This document shows, piece after piece, positions 36,136 to 42,485 of a stretch of DNA of 64,000 nucleotides. Position numbers and translations under genes: made by a program. Below the pieces are notes generated by a model that was given only the letters and a program-made list of their open reading frames with translations, searched no databases and was not told where the DNA came from. This stretch comes from Micromonospora sp. LH3U1 (lineage in GTDB: Bacteria; Actinomycetota; Actinomycetes; Mycobacteriales; Micromonosporaceae). The stretch spans positions 2,913,501 to 2,977,500 of the forward strand of contig NZ_CP116936.1 in NCBI RefSeq assembly GCF_028475105.1, in the 5' to 3' direction. The first letter of the stretch is position 1. Each line of letters starts with the position of its first letter.

Positions 36136-36600
36136 TCAGAGCAGCCTCGTGGATTGCTTCCAGAGGTCCTCCGCCCGGAAGTACCTGGCAGTGAACTCCT
36201 CTTCCAGGGGGCCCGTGTCCGTCTCATCCGTCCACCAGCCTGGCCAGACGTCGACACCGGAGGGCTCGCTGATGGTCGCGAGGACAGTGGAGCATCGGTG
36301 GCAGCGCCGAGGTGCCGAGTCCCGGAACTGCCCGCCGCAGTCGCATCGCCGTAGTCGCGCCTCAAGTGCCGCCATCAGCGTTGGGTAGGTCTCGTCGCGG
36401 GCAGGGAGCGCGTCCGCGATGGCCATGACCGTGCTGTCGTAGCAACTGACATCTACCCGCATTAGGCAGCTGTCGCAGTAAAGGAAGTAGCAGTCCAACA
36501 GCGGCGAGTGGTCGAGGCGGTAAAGGCGCTCGTGGCACTCCGGACAGGTAATCTCCTCGCCGTTAAGCCAGTTGTCGTCTAATTCGTCCGGTTGGCTCAC
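36136..36600 (-). CDS. Zinc-ribbon-rich hypothetical protein
   Basis: 154 residues from GTG 36600. Four CxxC-type knuckles are visible: ITCPECHERLY, LYCDSCLMRV, RRCDCGGQF and RRCHRCSTVL, enough for two zinc ribbons, separated by a helical segment (DALPARDETYPTLMAALEAR). The C-terminal part is acidic and aromatic (VDVWPGWWTDETDTGPLEEE). It may be a nucleic-acid or protein-binding protein; no family is recognised. The longer open frame upstream shows no such features, so the GTG was chosen. Confidence 0.7.
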   Translation of the reverse strand: MSQPDELDDNWLNGEEITCPECHERLYRLDHSPLLDCYFLYCDSCLMRVDVSCYDSTVMAIADALPARDETYPTLMAALEARLRRCDCGGQFRDSAPRRCHRCSTVLATISEPSGVDVWPGWWTDETDTGPLEEEFTARYFRAEDLWKQSTRLL

Positions 36601-37149
36601 GGCTTGATTGTTCCACGGTCTGAAGGCGCTGCGGCGGCGGTGGTGCGCCCGCGACCTTGGGGTCAACGTCGACGGTGTGCGGCAACCTCGGCAGGCCGAG
36701 CGGGAGACGTCGGACCGAAAGGCGTGTAGACGCCCGCGCAGTCGGCGAAGTTCCTCAAGTACCACGCAGGCCTCGGTCCGAACTGGACCGTGAGCCGTCG
36801 GCAGCGGTGTCGTCGGAGCCGGATGAAGAGTCGTCGCGGCACGGACGGCGGCGGCGGCGAGAACGTCCTCTGGTACCCACGACTCATCGCACTGTCGCCG
36901 CAGCAGGGCCGACAACCTATGGAGTGGGTACCAAGCCCGAAACCGTAACTTTGTTCCAGGGGACAATTTGGGCGGCACAAGATCGGTTGATGGCCAACGC
37001 GATCCCAGCGGTTTGTTGGGCTCCGACCACCTGCGGTTCCAGCACGGCGGTGTCCTGAGGGGCCAGGAATCGGGACAGTGCGCCGACGTGCCCGTCAACA
37101 GTCAGGCCAACCCGACCGCGGCAGCGGATGTGCCTGGTGGATGGTGTGG
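36601..37149. other. Intergenic region with degenerate operator copy
   Basis: About 550 bp. It holds the degenerate inverted repeat at 36948-36969. A minus-strand frame (about 36915-37140: GHVGALSRFLAPQDTAVLEP, then GIALAINRSCAAQIV) is protein-like but has no convincing start and no known family; it is not called. Confidence 0.35.
36948..36969. promoter_or_regulatory. Degenerate copy of the monooxygenase-cluster operator
   Basis: ACTTTGTTCC (36948-36957), spacer AG, GGGACAATTT (36960-36969). The left arm is identical over 10 bp to that of the perfect repeat at 41232-41253, the right arm matches 6 of 10. It lies beyond the 3' end of the dehydrogenase gene. Confidence 0.45.
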
Positions 37150-38328
37150 TCAGGGGTGTGACGACGCGACGATCGTGTCACCCGGCATTGCTGGGTCGAT
37201 GAGAATCTTGGCGTGGGTCTCCGGGTCGGCCAGGGTCTCGAAGGCGTGGGGGACGCCCGTCAGCCCGACCCGCCCGGTGGCGATCGGTGCCGCGTCGATG
37301 GTTCCGGCGGCCAGTGCGTGGAGCGTGTCGCGGAACTCCAGCGGCGTGTATCCGACCACGAACCGCAGGTCCTGTTCCTTGTTCACGGCCAGCGAGGGCC
37401 GGATCTTGTCGGCGCCCATGCACACGCCGACGACGACGATGCGTGAGTGCCGCGGCGCGGCGGCCAGAATGTTGTCGATCATGCCGGGTACGCCGACGCA
37501 CTCGAACACGACCGGCCGTTTGGGCCGGGTCTTGCCGGCCTTGTCCAGCAGCCGCCAGGCCGCCCACCAGGGGACGGGTAGCTTGTGCAGGCCCTGCATC
37601 GCGTCGATGCCGGCGTCGTACTCCGCGGTCATCGTCTCGTGGAACCCGTGGCCGCCGGTGGCCGCCCATGGTGAGTCGACGGCTGGGTCGACGACCACAT
37701 CGGCCCCGCATGCCCTCGCCAGCGCCCGCCGGCCGGCAGAGAAGTCGCTGGCGATGATCGTCGCCACGCCCCGCGCCTTGAGCACGGCGATCACCGCCAG
37801 CCCGACCGGGCCGCAGCCCAGCACGATCGCGACGTCCTTCTTCGTCACCTCGCCGCGGTTCACGGCGTGCCAGGCCACCGCCACCGGCTCCGTGAGTGCG
37901 GCGACGTCGGCGGCGAGCCCATCGGGTACGACCATGGTCAGCGCTTCCTGCACCACGACGTACTCGGCGTACCCGCCGGCGGCGGCAGCGGACAGGCCGA
38001 TGCCGTCGACCTGGCCGTCACGTCGGACCAGCGGGACGGCCACGACCGGCGCTCCTGGCCTGATGCGGCCGGTGGTCGACGGGCCGCGGTCGGCCACCTC
38101 GCCGTAGAACTCGTGGCCCAGCACGACGCTCTCGTGCGAGCGCAGGTAGCGGGGGTAGCCGCACAGCGTCAACGTCTCGGCCAGCTCGTCGGCGTGCGTA
38201 CGGGCGTGCAGGTCCGAACCGCAGATGCCGCATCGCCTCACCGCCACGAGCAGCTGCCCCGGGCCGGGCTGCGGGGTGGGCAGCTCCACGGTTTCGAGGC
38301 GGCCGCCGGTGAGGGTCACGGCTTTCAT
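37150..38328 (-). CDS. Zinc-dependent alcohol dehydrogenase (MDR family)
   Basis: 392 residues. Catalytic zinc ligands appear in RRCGICGSDLH and GHEFYGEV (Cys, His, Glu); the nucleotide fold has VLGCGPVGLAVIAVLKARG. The four-cysteine structural zinc lobe is absent. It starts with ATG 38328 inside the stop of the monooxygenase gene (ATGA), so it is the last gene of an MFS-monooxygenase-dehydrogenase operon. It probably oxidises the alcohol that is the monooxygenase substrate precursor or the product of ester hydrolysis. Confidence 0.9.
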   Translation of the reverse strand: MKAVTLTGGRLETVELPTPQPGPGQLLVAVRRCGICGSDLHARTHADELAETLTLCGYPRYLRSHESVVLGHEFYGEVADRGPSTTGRIRPGAPVVAVPLVRRDGQVDGIGLSAAAAGGYAEYVVVQEALTMVVPDGLAADVAALTEPVAVAWHAVNRGEVTKKDVAIVLGCGPVGLAVIAVLKARGVATIIASDFSAGRRALARACGADVVVDPAVDSPWAATGGHGFHETMTAEYDAGIDAMQGLHKLPVPWWAAWRLLDKAGKTRPKRPVVFECVGVPGMIDNILAAAPRHSRIVVVGVCMGADKIRPSLAVNKEQDLRFVVGYTPLEFRDTLHALAAGTIDAAPIATGRVGLTGVPHAFETLADPETHAKILIDPAMPGDTIVASSHP

Positions 38329-39794
38329 CGGCGGTCTCCTGTGGTGAGTTGGTAGACGTCCTCGCGCCAGCGGACGGCCTGCCGGCGGTAGCGGAAGGTC
38401 CAGTCCGGGTAGATGGTCGCGTTACGGCCATTCGCGTCCTGATAGAAGGTGCGGCAGCCGCCCACCTCCCACACTGTTCTGGCCAGTTTGCGGTCCAGTT
38501 CGGCGTTGTATGCCTCGTGCGCTGGTCGCTTCACCTCGATGGCCGTGCCTCCCGACCGTTCGAGGGCGCGGATGGCGTTCGTCACGTGCTCTATCTGCGC
38601 CTCGATCATGTAGACCATCGAACTGTGACCCAGACCGGAATTCGGCCCGAGGAACATGAAGAAGTTCGGGAAGCCGGGCACGGAGACGCCGAGGTACGCC
38701 TTGGGGGAGCCGGCCCAGACGTCGTTCAGCAGACGGCCGTCGCGTCCGCGTACCTTGTCGGCGAACGGGATGTCGGTGACGTGGAAGCCGGTGCCGAAGA
38801 TGATCGTGTCGACCTTGCGCTCCACGCCGTCGGCGCCGACCACGGCGTCCTCGCGGATCTCCCGCAGGGCGTGCGGCACGAGTTCGACATTGGGCTCCTG
38901 TAGCGCCGGATACCAGGTGTTCGACGGCACGATCCGTTTGCAGCCGAGCGTGAAGCCAGGTGTGAGCAGCCGCCGCAGCTGCGGGTCGGCGACCTGCCGC
39001 TCCAGGTGTTTGCGAGCGACGCCTTCCAGAACAGTCATCAGCTTGGGGCGCTTGGCCATGCCGAGCACGAGCAGTTCCTTGCTGAGGTAGACCTTGCCAC
39101 GTTCGAGTTTCTGCCGCCACGGCTGCGCCCGGAACCTGGCCCGCTCCGCGTCGCTGATCGGCCGCTTGTCGTGTGGGGTGATCCACGGGGCGCTGCGCTG
39201 GAACACGAATAGCCGGCTGGCCACGGTGGCCAGGTGCGGCACGTACTGGATCGCCGAGGCTCCGGTGCCGATGGACGCGATCCACTTGCCGGTGAGGTCG
39301 TAGTCGTGGTCCCACCGCGCCGAGTGCATGATCTTGCCCTGGAAGATGTCGAGGCCCGGCACGTCGGGGAGCTTGGGTTCGGTCAGCGGGCCCACCGCGC
39401 TGACCAGCACCTGGGCGGTCCACGGGCCCGCGCTGGTGTCCACGTGCCACAGCTGGTCATCCTCGTCCCATCGAGCCGCCTCGACGCCGACGCCGGTGCG
39501 CAGGTGCGGGCGCAACCCGAAGTCGTCGATGCAGCGCCGCAGATAGGCACGGATCTCCGGCTGCGGGGAGTAGGTCGAGGACCAGTCCGGGTTGGGGGCG
39601 AACGAGAACGAGTACAGGTGGGACGGGACGTCGCAGGTGCAGCCCGGGTAGGTGTTCGACTGCCAGACGCCGCCGACCTCGGGCTCGCGTTCGAGAATGG
39701 CGAAGTCGGTGACCCCGGCCTCGCGCAGGGCTCGTCCGAGCCCGATCCCCGAGAATCCGCCGCCGACGATCACAACCCGCATGTGCTGGTTCAT
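38325..39794 (-). CDS. Baeyer-Villiger-type flavin monooxygenase
   Basis: 489 residues from ATG 39794. FAD motif VIVGGGFSGIGLG (8-20), the Baeyer-Villiger fingerprint FQGKIMHSARW (F151, G153, H157, W161) and NADPH motif SIGTGASAIQ (174-183). It inserts oxygen next to a ketone, giving an ester or lactone, with FAD and NADPH. It overlaps both neighbours by ATGA. With the dehydrogenase it makes an alcohol to ketone to ester route; no esterase is in the operon. Expression is probably controlled by the divergent PucR-type regulator. Confidence 0.92.
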   Translation of the reverse strand: MNQHMRVVIVGGGFSGIGLGRALREAGVTDFAILEREPEVGGVWQSNTYPGCTCDVPSHLYSFSFAPNPDWSSTYSPQPEIRAYLRRCIDDFGLRPHLRTGVGVEAARWDEDDQLWHVDTSAGPWTAQVLVSAVGPLTEPKLPDVPGLDIFQGKIMHSARWDHDYDLTGKWIASIGTGASAIQYVPHLATVASRLFVFQRSAPWITPHDKRPISDAERARFRAQPWRQKLERGKVYLSKELLVLGMAKRPKLMTVLEGVARKHLERQVADPQLRRLLTPGFTLGCKRIVPSNTWYPALQEPNVELVPHALREIREDAVVGADGVERKVDTIIFGTGFHVTDIPFADKVRGRDGRLLNDVWAGSPKAYLGVSVPGFPNFFMFLGPNSGLGHSSMVYMIEAQIEHVTNAIRALERSGGTAIEVKRPAHEAYNAELDRKLARTVWEVGGCRTFYQDANGRNATIYPDWTFRYRRQAVRWREDVYQLTTGDRR

Positions 39795-41107
39795 GCCGGC
39801 ACCTCGCCCGCGAGCATCGCCTCGTGGTCCGTCTTGACGGAGCGGGAGGCGGCCAGCATGCCGATCGCCGCCACGGCGAAGGCTACGGGCACGCCGATCA
39901 TCATCGCGGTCTGCAAGCCCTGTGCCGTGGCAGCGGTGGTATCCGCCGACTGTGCGGCGAGGGCGTCGGAGAGGATGCCGACGACGATCGGGCCACCCGC
40001 GCCGCCCAGCAGATAACCGACGGCGAACATCAGGCCGATCGCGCCGGCGCGCTGCTGCGGGCCGATCACGTCCGACACGATGGGTACGGCCGCGGCCAGG
40101 TAGATGATGCCGAGCAGATAGGCCAGGCTCAGGAACAGCACGAGCTGCCACAGCCTGTCCCGGTTCGCGGCGAACCCCACGAGCGCGAACACGGCGGCCG
40201 CGGCAAGGCTGTACGCGGCGGTGCGTACCCGTGCGCCGAGCGACCTGCGGGCTGCGCGGTCCAGCAGGCGGCCGCCTATGAGCAGGCCGATCAGCCCGGT
40301 GATGCCGATGACGACCCCGCCGATCACGCCCGCGTCGACCAGGTCGAGGCCGTAGTAGCGCTGCAGGACCGGGGTGAGGAAGGTGCCGATCGCGTACGCC
40401 GCGAAGTTGTAGCCCGCGAAGCCGATGATCAGGCCGTACATCGAGCGGACTCGCAGCAGCGACCGCAGTGACGACCGCTGCGGTGCGGCCGCAACGGTCA
40501 TGTCGTCGGCGGCTCCGCGCCGAGGTTCACGGATGCGGAGGACCAGGACCGCGACGATGAAGCCGGGGACCGCTGCGATGAGGAACGGCGCCCGCCAGCT
40601 GTCGAACGTGACGGCGAGGGCGCCGGCGGTGAGGAACGCCAGCAGCGTGCCGATCGGGAAGCCCAGCATGAACAGGGAGTTGGCTCGGGAGCGGCGCTCG
40701 CTGGGGTAGAGATCGGAGATCAGTGAACCGGTCGCCGGCCCGTAACTCGCCTCGCCCACTCCGACGCCGACGCGGGAGGCAAGGAAGCTCCAGAAGCTGG
40801 TCAGCACGCCGCCAGCGGCGGTGAACGCGCTCCACACGATCAGGCCCCAGCCCGCCACCATCGTGCGCGGAATCCGGTCGGCGAGACGGCCCAGTGGAAC
40901 CCCGGCGACGGCGGCGACCAGGACGAACGCCGAGGCGAGGATGCCGACCTGAGTGTCGTCGAGCCCGTATTCCTCCTTGATTGGCTCCAGCACGACCGCC
41001 GGTAACGCCCGATCGTAGAAGTTGAGCAGGTTGCCGATGAACAGCAGCGCCAGCACATAACCGGCTTTGGAGTGTGAGCGTGGAGCCTCCACCGGGGATT
41101 TCGTCAT
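39791..41107 (-). CDS. MFS transporter, Spinster/ACS-like
   Basis: 438 residues from ATG 41107 (GAAGGGAA upstream); a longer frame to 41173 is possible. About 12 helices; NLLNFYDRALPAVVLEPIKE in helix 1 and PLGRLADRIPRTMVAGWGLI for motif A are typical of Spinster-like and organic-anion MFS carriers. As first gene of the monooxygenase operon it likely imports the ketone- or alcohol-bearing substrate. The promoter region with the perfect inverted repeat is shared with the regulator. Confidence 0.88.
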   Translation of the reverse strand: MTKSPVEAPRSHSKAGYVLALLFIGNLLNFYDRALPAVVLEPIKEEYGLDDTQVGILASAFVLVAAVAGVPLGRLADRIPRTMVAGWGLIVWSAFTAAGGVLTSFWSFLASRVGVGVGEASYGPATGSLISDLYPSERRSRANSLFMLGFPIGTLLAFLTAGALAVTFDSWRAPFLIAAVPGFIVAVLVLRIREPRRGAADDMTVAAAPQRSSLRSLLRVRSMYGLIIGFAGYNFAAYAIGTFLTPVLQRYYGLDLVDAGVIGGVVIGITGLIGLLIGGRLLDRAARRSLGARVRTAAYSLAAAAVFALVGFAANRDRLWQLVLFLSLAYLLGIIYLAAAVPIVSDVIGPQQRAGAIGLMFAVGYLLGGAGGPIVVGILSDALAAQSADTTAATAQGLQTAMMIGVPVAFAVAAIGMLAASRSVKTDHEAMLAGEVPA

Positions 41108-41231
41108 GGGTTTCCCTTCGCCGAGGAGGAGGCTCGGGACGACGTCGGTGCACTCGTCCATGAGCTGCGCCACAGTCTTGCCCGCAAGGACACGGCTAGC
41201 TACGGAGCGTCAACCAAGATTGGGAGGCACT

Positions 41232-41253
41232 ACTTTGTTCCGTGGAACAAAGT
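41232..41253. promoter_or_regulatory. Perfect inverted-repeat operator in divergent promoter
   Basis: ACTTTGTTCC (41232-41241), spacer GT, GGAACAAAGT (41244-41253): a 10-bp perfect repeat. It lies between the MFS operon and the regulator gene, 8 bp upstream of the TAGGCT box of the latter, overlapping its -35 region. Likely binding site of the adjacent regulator. Confidence 0.7.
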
Positions 41254-41273
41254 CCATGTCATAGGCTCGGGCG

Positions 41274-42485
41274 GTGACGGATGCGACCCACGTGGTGTGG
41301 CCGGTACGGCGACGAATGCCGGATCTCGTCACGCTCGACAAGGCCACCAGGAAGAAGGTGGCCACAGCCGTCGAACTGCTGCGGGCGCGCAAGGACGCGT
41401 ACGGTGACCAGTTCCTGAAGATCACGCGGGAGCACCTGCCCGGCTACCGGGGTTTGCCGGACGACGAAATCCGGGCGACCGCGCAGCGCTTCATGGACAC
41501 CCTGGTCGCCGAACTGTCCGACCTGCGCGTCCCCGATGAGGCCCTGCGCAAGCTGGTCCAGGCGGTTGCCGCCCGCAGCGCGGTTCGCGGGATCCCACCG
41601 GACGTGCTGGCCACCGGCTACCAGTTGGGGTCACGTGCGATGCTGGGCGTGCTGGACGAGGTGGGCGCTGAGGTCGGCCTGCCGCCGGATCTGGTTCTGG
41701 CGATCCACGACAACACCTGGGAATTCTCCAACGAGGCGTCCGCGGTGTTCGCGCGGGTGCACCACGACCTCGCGCTCGAACGGGCACGCTTCGACGCCGA
41801 ACGCCGCTCCACGTACGCCGGTGGGGTGCTGCGCGGCACGTTCACCGCCGAGCAGGTCAACCGCGATGCCCACCTGTTCGGCTTCGATCCGCGCGTACGC
41901 CATGTGCCGCTCGCGGCGCGGGCCGCGTCGACCGGCGACGCCGACACGATCCGCCGCGCGATCGCGTCCGCGCTGCATGTACCCGCGGACCGGTTACTCT
42001 TCGCCGAGGTCGGCGCCACTCTCGGCTTCATCGCCCCGCAGGTGCCCGACCAGCTCACCGGCCACCTCGTGGCGGCCGGCCCGGCGGTTCCGCTGGATCA
42101 ACTCCAAACGGCGTTCGCCGAGGCGGTGCTGGCCCTGGACACCGCCGAACGGTTCGGCCAATCCGGCGTCGTACGGTTGGCGGACCTCGGGCCACGGCCC
42201 CTGGTGCTGGCTGGTGCGCAGATCGCGGCTGGCCTCGTCGCACGTCACCTGGACGCCCTCGACCGCTCCGGCCGGGCGAACAATGACATCGCCGAGACCA
42301 CGAGGGTCTACCTGAACTGCGATCAGCAGGTCCGCGACACCGCCCAGCGGCTCGCCGTGCACCAGAACACGGTGCGCTACCGGGTGCGCCGCTTCACTGA
42401 ACTCACCGGCCTCGACCTGCGCCGCACCGAGGACCTGGTCACGGCGTGGTGGCTGCTGCATCGCCGTCGTCCCTCAGCCCCATGA
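41274..42485 (+). CDS. PucR/CdaR-type transcriptional regulator
   Basis: 403 residues from GTG 41274, 6 nt after TAGGCT (leaderless). The N-terminal half is a helical sensor of the RsbT co-antagonist/GGDEF-like group; the C-terminus carries the PucR helix-turn-helix VRDTAQRLAVHQNTVRYRVR followed by FTELTGLDLRRTEDL. It faces the MFS-monooxygenase-dehydrogenase operon across a promoter region with a perfect inverted repeat, so it probably controls that operon and itself. Confidence 0.88.
   Translation: MTDATHVVWPVRRRMPDLVTLDKATRKKVATAVELLRARKDAYGDQFLKITREHLPGYRGLPDDEIRATAQRFMDTLVAELSDLRVPDEALRKLVQAVAARSAVRGIPPDVLATGYQLGSRAMLGVLDEVGAEVGLPPDLVLAIHDNTWEFSNEASAVFARVHHDLALERARFDAERRSTYAGGVLRGTFTAEQVNRDAHLFGFDPRVRHVPLAARAASTGDADTIRRAIASALHVPADRLLFAEVGATLGFIAPQVPDQLTGHLVAAGPAVPLDQLQTAFAEAVLALDTAERFGQSGVVRLADLGPRPLVLAGAQIAAGLVARHLDALDRSGRANNDIAETTRVYLNCDQQVRDTAQRLAVHQNTVRYRVRRFTELTGLDLRRTEDLVTAWWLLHRRRPSAP

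Follow-up and report, generated by a model that had tools for sequence, protein, structure and literature searches.

The window that we analysed, a 64-kb stretch of the Micromonospora sp. LH3U1 genome, contains a gene for a PucR/MabR-type regulator (pucR; 41274-42485, plus strand, 403 aa) that faces a three-gene operon on the minus strand. The first gene of this operon encodes an MFS transporter (39791-41107, 438 aa), and is followed by genes for a Baeyer-Villiger-type flavin monooxygenase (BVMO; 38325-39794, 489 aa) and a zinc-dependent alcohol dehydrogenase (ADH; 37150-38328, 392 aa), with ATGA overlaps between MFS and BVMO and between BVMO and ADH. The listed MFS reading frame (39791-41173) opens at a GTG at 41173; we favour the ATG at 41107 as the likely start codon, based on an RBS-like GAAGGG and on alignment with the orthologs. 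Type I BVMOs are recognised by the fingerprint FxGxxxHxxxW(P/D), flanked by two GxGxx(G/A) motifs. Here, the FxGxxxHxxxWD form of the fingerprint (FQGKIMHSARWD) occupies residues 151-162, with GGGFSG at residue 11 and GTGASA at residue 176, and the closest solved structures are those of steroid and cyclohexanone monooxygenases. A type I BVMO encoded beside a dehydrogenase is the arrangement expected of alcohol-ketone-ester/lactone routes; the cassette shares this arrangement with actinobacterial BVMO clusters, but includes no esterase or lactonase. No tRNA was found in the window.

The regulator has the C-terminal HTH of the PucR family (HTH_30, PF13556; E = 3.8e-18, above the gathering score). 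Its putative GGDEF-like domain, a type of domain that occurs in about half of PucR-family members, scores 23 bits against PF17853, just under the cut-off of 24.5, and the fold matches structures 9f80 and 3onq. The AlphaFold model (mean pLDDT 85.7, with N-terminal blocks mostly at 84-93) resembles 9f80, the C-terminal structure of MabR, with E = 1.1e-9 and ~21% identity over the aligned structure, and the N-terminal helices match globins with Foldseek probabilities of up to 1.00, but with weak E-values of 0.02-0.1. We predict from these comparisons that the regulator shares the architecture of MabR, which consists of globin, GGDEF-like and HTH domains (PMC11617747).

The intergenic region between pucR and the MFS gene contains a perfect 22-bp palindrome, ACTTTGTTCCGTGGAACAAAGT (site 1; 41232-41253), in which two 10-bp arms with no mismatch are separated by a 2-bp spacer; its core is TTTGT(N8)ACAAA, and it lies 20 bp ahead of the pucR start codon. 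A partial palindrome, ACTTTGTTCCAGGGGACAATTT (site 2; 36948-36969), lies ~4.3 kb away, 180 bp past the stop codon of the ADH gene, and has the same left arm as site 1 with three mismatches in the right arm. An earlier reading of the window from its letters alone (the sequence-only reading) had described both inverted repeats; they are real, at exactly these coordinates, and the number expected from shuffling is 0.00. A half-site near 36605 was set aside, since it has eight mismatches and ~18 places that distant are expected per 64 kb. Sites 1 and 2 are the only matches within three mismatches in the entire genome (7,090,248 bases), where base composition predicts ~0.02 such matches, or ~2e-6 per 600 bp; the motif does not recur frequently in this genome. 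The genome has one other intact TTTGT(N7-10)ACAAA, beside a ROK-family gene, which we take as unrelated. At this locus (G000:C1:5593730-5593747; L139), a TTTGT(N8)ACAAA lies within a longer palindrome between the ROK-family regulator gene and a gene for a membrane-protein-like product, and may serve there as a separate operator or terminator. Across all genome contigs, the exact palindrome occurs in two other stretches, from Dojkabacteria and Bacteroidetes metagenome assemblies, presumably by chance. A search of open-access papers for both half-site words returned, among the matches listed, none that evidently concerned this motif.

Matches within three mismatches occur in six of 200 genomes from the family, including our own, and a reversed control pattern matches in five genomes. 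Taken alone, the relaxed pattern does not rise above background; only gene context separates the two informative matches from the rest. Two of the five matches outside our genome lie between pucR and the MFS gene in genomes from two further genera of the family (G088 and G044), where the whole cassette is present and colinear with ours; the repeat is present upstream of both orthologous operons, as the sequence-only reading had asked to be checked. Around the other three matches (G076, G048 and G038), the stretches taken contained no cassette gene; G076 gave a single weak match to the dehydrogenase. Identities of the encoded proteins to those of G088 and G044, respectively, are 70 and 72% for PucR, 81 and 78% for the MFS transporter, 77 and 81% for the BVMO, and 75 and 78% for the ADH. 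The DNA homology shared with these two cassettes spans 37188-42473, ending at the outer genes, with unrelated flanks, and neither locus has a second site (0/2; best match, eight mismatches).

The cassette is rare. A protein search with the regulator in 354 genomes of the family found four matches, namely our own, G088, G044 and G042, and our own genome was the single one of 160 from the genus with a match. The G042 match (L087, 8661-9381) is a frameshifted pucR remnant covering residues 158-399 with 71-73% identity; the other three cassette genes are absent from this locus, the palindrome comes no closer than six mismatches in 19 kb, and we regard the remnant as another decayed copy. Samples of the class (394 genomes) and the order (249 genomes) yielded, besides our own genome, distant relatives of the regulator only. 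By itself, the zinc-dependent dehydrogenase has relatives in 49 of the 394 class genomes at E = 1e-80, our own included; in 20 of the dehydrogenase-bearing genomes, the 15-kb neighbourhoods gave no MFS or PucR match and two weak (~25%) monooxygenase matches. In plasmids, searches at a threshold of 60% identity recovered none of the cassette genes. This sporadic distribution would be most simply accounted for by horizontal transfer. Upstream of nine distant PucR homologs (25-32% identity) the motif is absent, with best matches at 8-11 mismatches. One further genome, G370 (L078, 7201-8226 and 14410-15807), encodes a distant PucR homolog ~6 kb from a BVMO that is 45.6% identical to ours, with a further PucR homolog ~12 kb away, which hints at a wider association of PucR-type proteins with BVMOs. 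Among the open-access papers searched, none combined PucR, Baeyer-Villiger monooxygenase and operon.

Alignment of the three cassette promoters identifies several conserved elements, and conservation here rests on these three sequences. Each of the three carries the core TTTGT(N8)ACAAA unchanged, and TTTGT and GAACAAAGT are among the palindrome letters that do not vary. A second box, CTTGGTTGACGCTCCGTAG (41200-41218, minus strand), lies towards the MFS gene at 12-13 bp from the palindrome and consists of CTTGG followed by CNCCGTAG; it is found in all three loci and, as described below, in the DNA around site 2. This box is conserved equally with the palindrome, making it an alternative candidate binding element, and it may be either a promoter element or a second contact of the regulator. 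A third block, ACTGTGGCGCAGCTCATGG (41158-41176, minus strand), lies farther from the palindrome than the CTTGG box, in the 5' region of the MFS gene, and includes ACTGTGNYGCASCTCATGG. It is nearly identical in all three cassettes; by eye, its reading frame in G044 would run for ~14 codons to a TGA and in the other two reads on into MFS, and the block may act as DNA or RNA control rather than as coding sequence. On the pucR side, a -10-like TANNNT hexamer (41262-41267, plus strand) precedes the start codon by 6 nt, at a distance of 8 bp from the palindrome, and reads TAGGCT here and TACGCT in both orthologs, at an equal distance from the pucR start in all three. This position suggests that the pucR mRNA is probably leaderless, and the palindrome just upstream of the hexamer suggests that pucR is autoregulated. 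By eye, no sigma-70-like or other standard promoter could be placed on the MFS side. We considered an ECF-sigma element, given the GGAAC within the palindrome, and dropped it because G088 and G044 have AGAAC when read towards MFS.

What binds site 1? The sequence-only reading had named the adjacent PucR-type protein as the natural candidate, and this is well supported by the synteny of the palindrome with pucR in the orthologs, by the likeness of its half-site to that of MabR, and by the predicted MabR architecture of the regulator; the cassette's own PucR-type protein very probably binds at site 1. MabR (Rv2242), the fasII regulator of mycobacteria, is a PucR-family activator with the recognition sequence TTTTGT(N)9ACAAAA (PMC5541348), and the half-sites are alike, with a spacer one base shorter in the cassette. 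In common with MabR and its Streptomyces orthologue FasR, the regulator gene here adjoins the operon that it would regulate; unlike them, its putative target is a catabolic MFS-BVMO-ADH cassette rather than fatty-acid synthesis. A second precedent is GabR of Corynebacterium glutamicum, a PucR-type activator that is encoded divergently from its own operon and binds two 21-bp intergenic inverted repeats (PMC7652997). The resemblance extends to the divergent gene, the local regulator, the transport-and-catabolism operon and inverted repeats of ~21 bp; GabR differs in having no GGDEF-like domain and two nearby repeats, where the cassette has one repeat and a non-palindromic box. The same paper reports 24-bp repeats for AdeR, 17-bp repeats for PutR, and a non-palindromic binding site for PucR of Bacillus subtilis (PMC7652997).

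An alternative possibility is that a different, unlinked regulator, such as a TetR-type repressor, binds the palindrome. Regulators of other families commonly use perfect palindromes of about this size near promoters as their operators. Nonetheless, pucR accompanies the palindrome in all three cassettes, and the half-site agrees with that reported for the PucR-family protein MabR. We also searched with a 75-position model built from the three intergenic regions, excluding site 2. Its near full-length matches in our own genome are the cassette promoter and site 2 only (E = 2.4e-4), and in G088 and G044 the cassette promoter alone is convincing, with all others at E = 0.118 or worse. Matching so few places fits a local regulator, and we consider an unlinked one rather improbable.

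The similarity of site 2 to site 1 extends far beyond the palindrome, across 131 bp (36885-37015, minus strand) in the same orientation as site 1. With the window excluded, a profile built from the G088 and G044 control regions only detects site 1 with E = 1.1e-38 and 36885-37015 with E = 2.1e-10 and a score of 35.3 bits. It also picks up the site-1 palindrome on the other strand (E = 0.011), and random sequence gave at most 11.6 bits in 50 stretches of 64 kb. In addition to the palindrome, this DNA contains a copy of the second box, CTTGGTACCCACTCCATAG (36917-36935, minus strand), with the form CTTGG...CTCCATAG and with the palindrome-box spacing kept, and a pucR-like start (36990-37015, plus strand), in which an ATG opens MANAIPAV, to be compared with MTSAIPTA and MTSPFPAA at the ortholog starts, before homology stops after ~8 codons. 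Its identities to the three promoters are 73/131, 75/121 and 77/129, making it about equidistant from all three cassettes and thus unlike a recent copy of site 1. We conclude that site 2 is best explained as belonging to the decayed remains of a further, diverged copy of this control region. Among 65 letters invariant across the cassettes, the remnant retains 26 of 28 in the palindrome and box and 23 of 37 elsewhere (Fisher p = 0.0076), a pattern that fits constraint before the copy died, and also fits residual function or binding. One half-site has been damaged, from TTTGT to ATTGT.

The remnant lies outside the conserved DNA block, among other fragments. To its left is a frameshifted, phage-type integrase fragment (36651-36767, plus strand), which matches Phage_integrase, aligns as protein in two frames and has an in-frame stop; most of the fragment is 84-90% identical to intact integrase genes of nine related genomes. 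To its right, between the remnant and the dehydrogenase gene, is a fragment of a GH97/ricin-B-lectin gene (37025-37117, plus strand), with 81% identity to a gene that is intact at another place in this genome. Farther left is a gene for a small cysteine-rich protein (36155-36602), with 83-88% DNA identity in about a dozen members of the genus, with unrelated surroundings in those looked at; scanned as the longer frame 36136-37098, it gave no Pfam match.

That the resemblance of site 2 arose by chance might be imagined for a lone partial palindrome 4.3 kb from its partner, but we rejected this given the shuffles, the genome-wide count and an independent profile that detects the full 131 bp at E = 2.1e-10; with the genome-wide E of 2.4e-4 from the 75-position model and 11.6 bits as the best from random sequence, its likelihood is next to nil. 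The sequence-only reading had suggested that one regulator binds both sites, perhaps by looping, in which case both would be live operators bridged across the operon. Most core letters are indeed kept at both sites, site 2 is the sole other site in the genome, and PucR-type proteins are described as able to form tetramers or octamers (PMC11617747, PMC7652997). The difficulty is that site 2 does not belong to the conserved cassette: neither orthologous cassette has it, and it lies beyond the conserved block, amid debris, in a decayed copy with one damaged half-site. We therefore rejected looping as the leading reading and regard it as very unlikely.

The same reading had offered a second controlled promoter as an option, which holds historically, in that site 2 appears to derive from one; at present, no intact gene lies directly behind it. 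A promoter still working under PucR control could point leftward, to the gene at 36155-36602, or run rightward and antisense into the 3' end of the ADH gene, and the better preservation of the regulatory letters than of the rest of the remnant, with palindrome and box at the proper spacing, would be expected of such a promoter. However, more than 300 bp and the integrase fragment separate the remnant from the leftward gene, which is kept in several members of the genus without the remnant DNA upstream, and the rightward -10-like hexamer is damaged (CAAGAT); on balance, we think a working promoter unlikely, if not extremely so. It is also conceivable, at somewhat long odds, that the regulator continues to bind the remnant, which would then act as a titrating decoy or as an antisense promoter facing the dehydrogenase 3' end. 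If so, a dead cassette copy would now serve in the regulation of the living cassette.

We consider it probable, judging from sequence comparisons, that site 1 is the PucR-bound switch of a mobile cassette and that site 2 is a remnant of a second copy of its control region. According to this account, pucR and MFS-BVMO-ADH would form a self-contained catabolic cassette with a sporadic distribution, whose PucR/MabR-type regulator would bind 41232-41253 through the TTTGT half-sites, as a dimer or a larger oligomer. When its effector is present, the regulator would most likely activate the MFS-BVMO-ADH operon, by precedent within the family, and it would also control its own, probably leaderless, promoter. 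Recombination would have cut off another, diverged copy of this region, leaving site 2 beside the integrase and glycosidase-lectin fragments; we infer that this copy belonged to a second cassette, mostly lost in rearrangements.

Given that few binding sites have been mapped for PucR/MabR-type regulators, the palindrome provides a testable candidate operator for a member of this group outside fatty-acid synthesis. The candidate operator is tied to a putatively mobile oxidation cassette, and an inducer of the cassette could reveal the substrate of its BVMO. Lastly, the locus suggests that what looks like a pair of operators can be a live promoter together with the fossil of a second copy.
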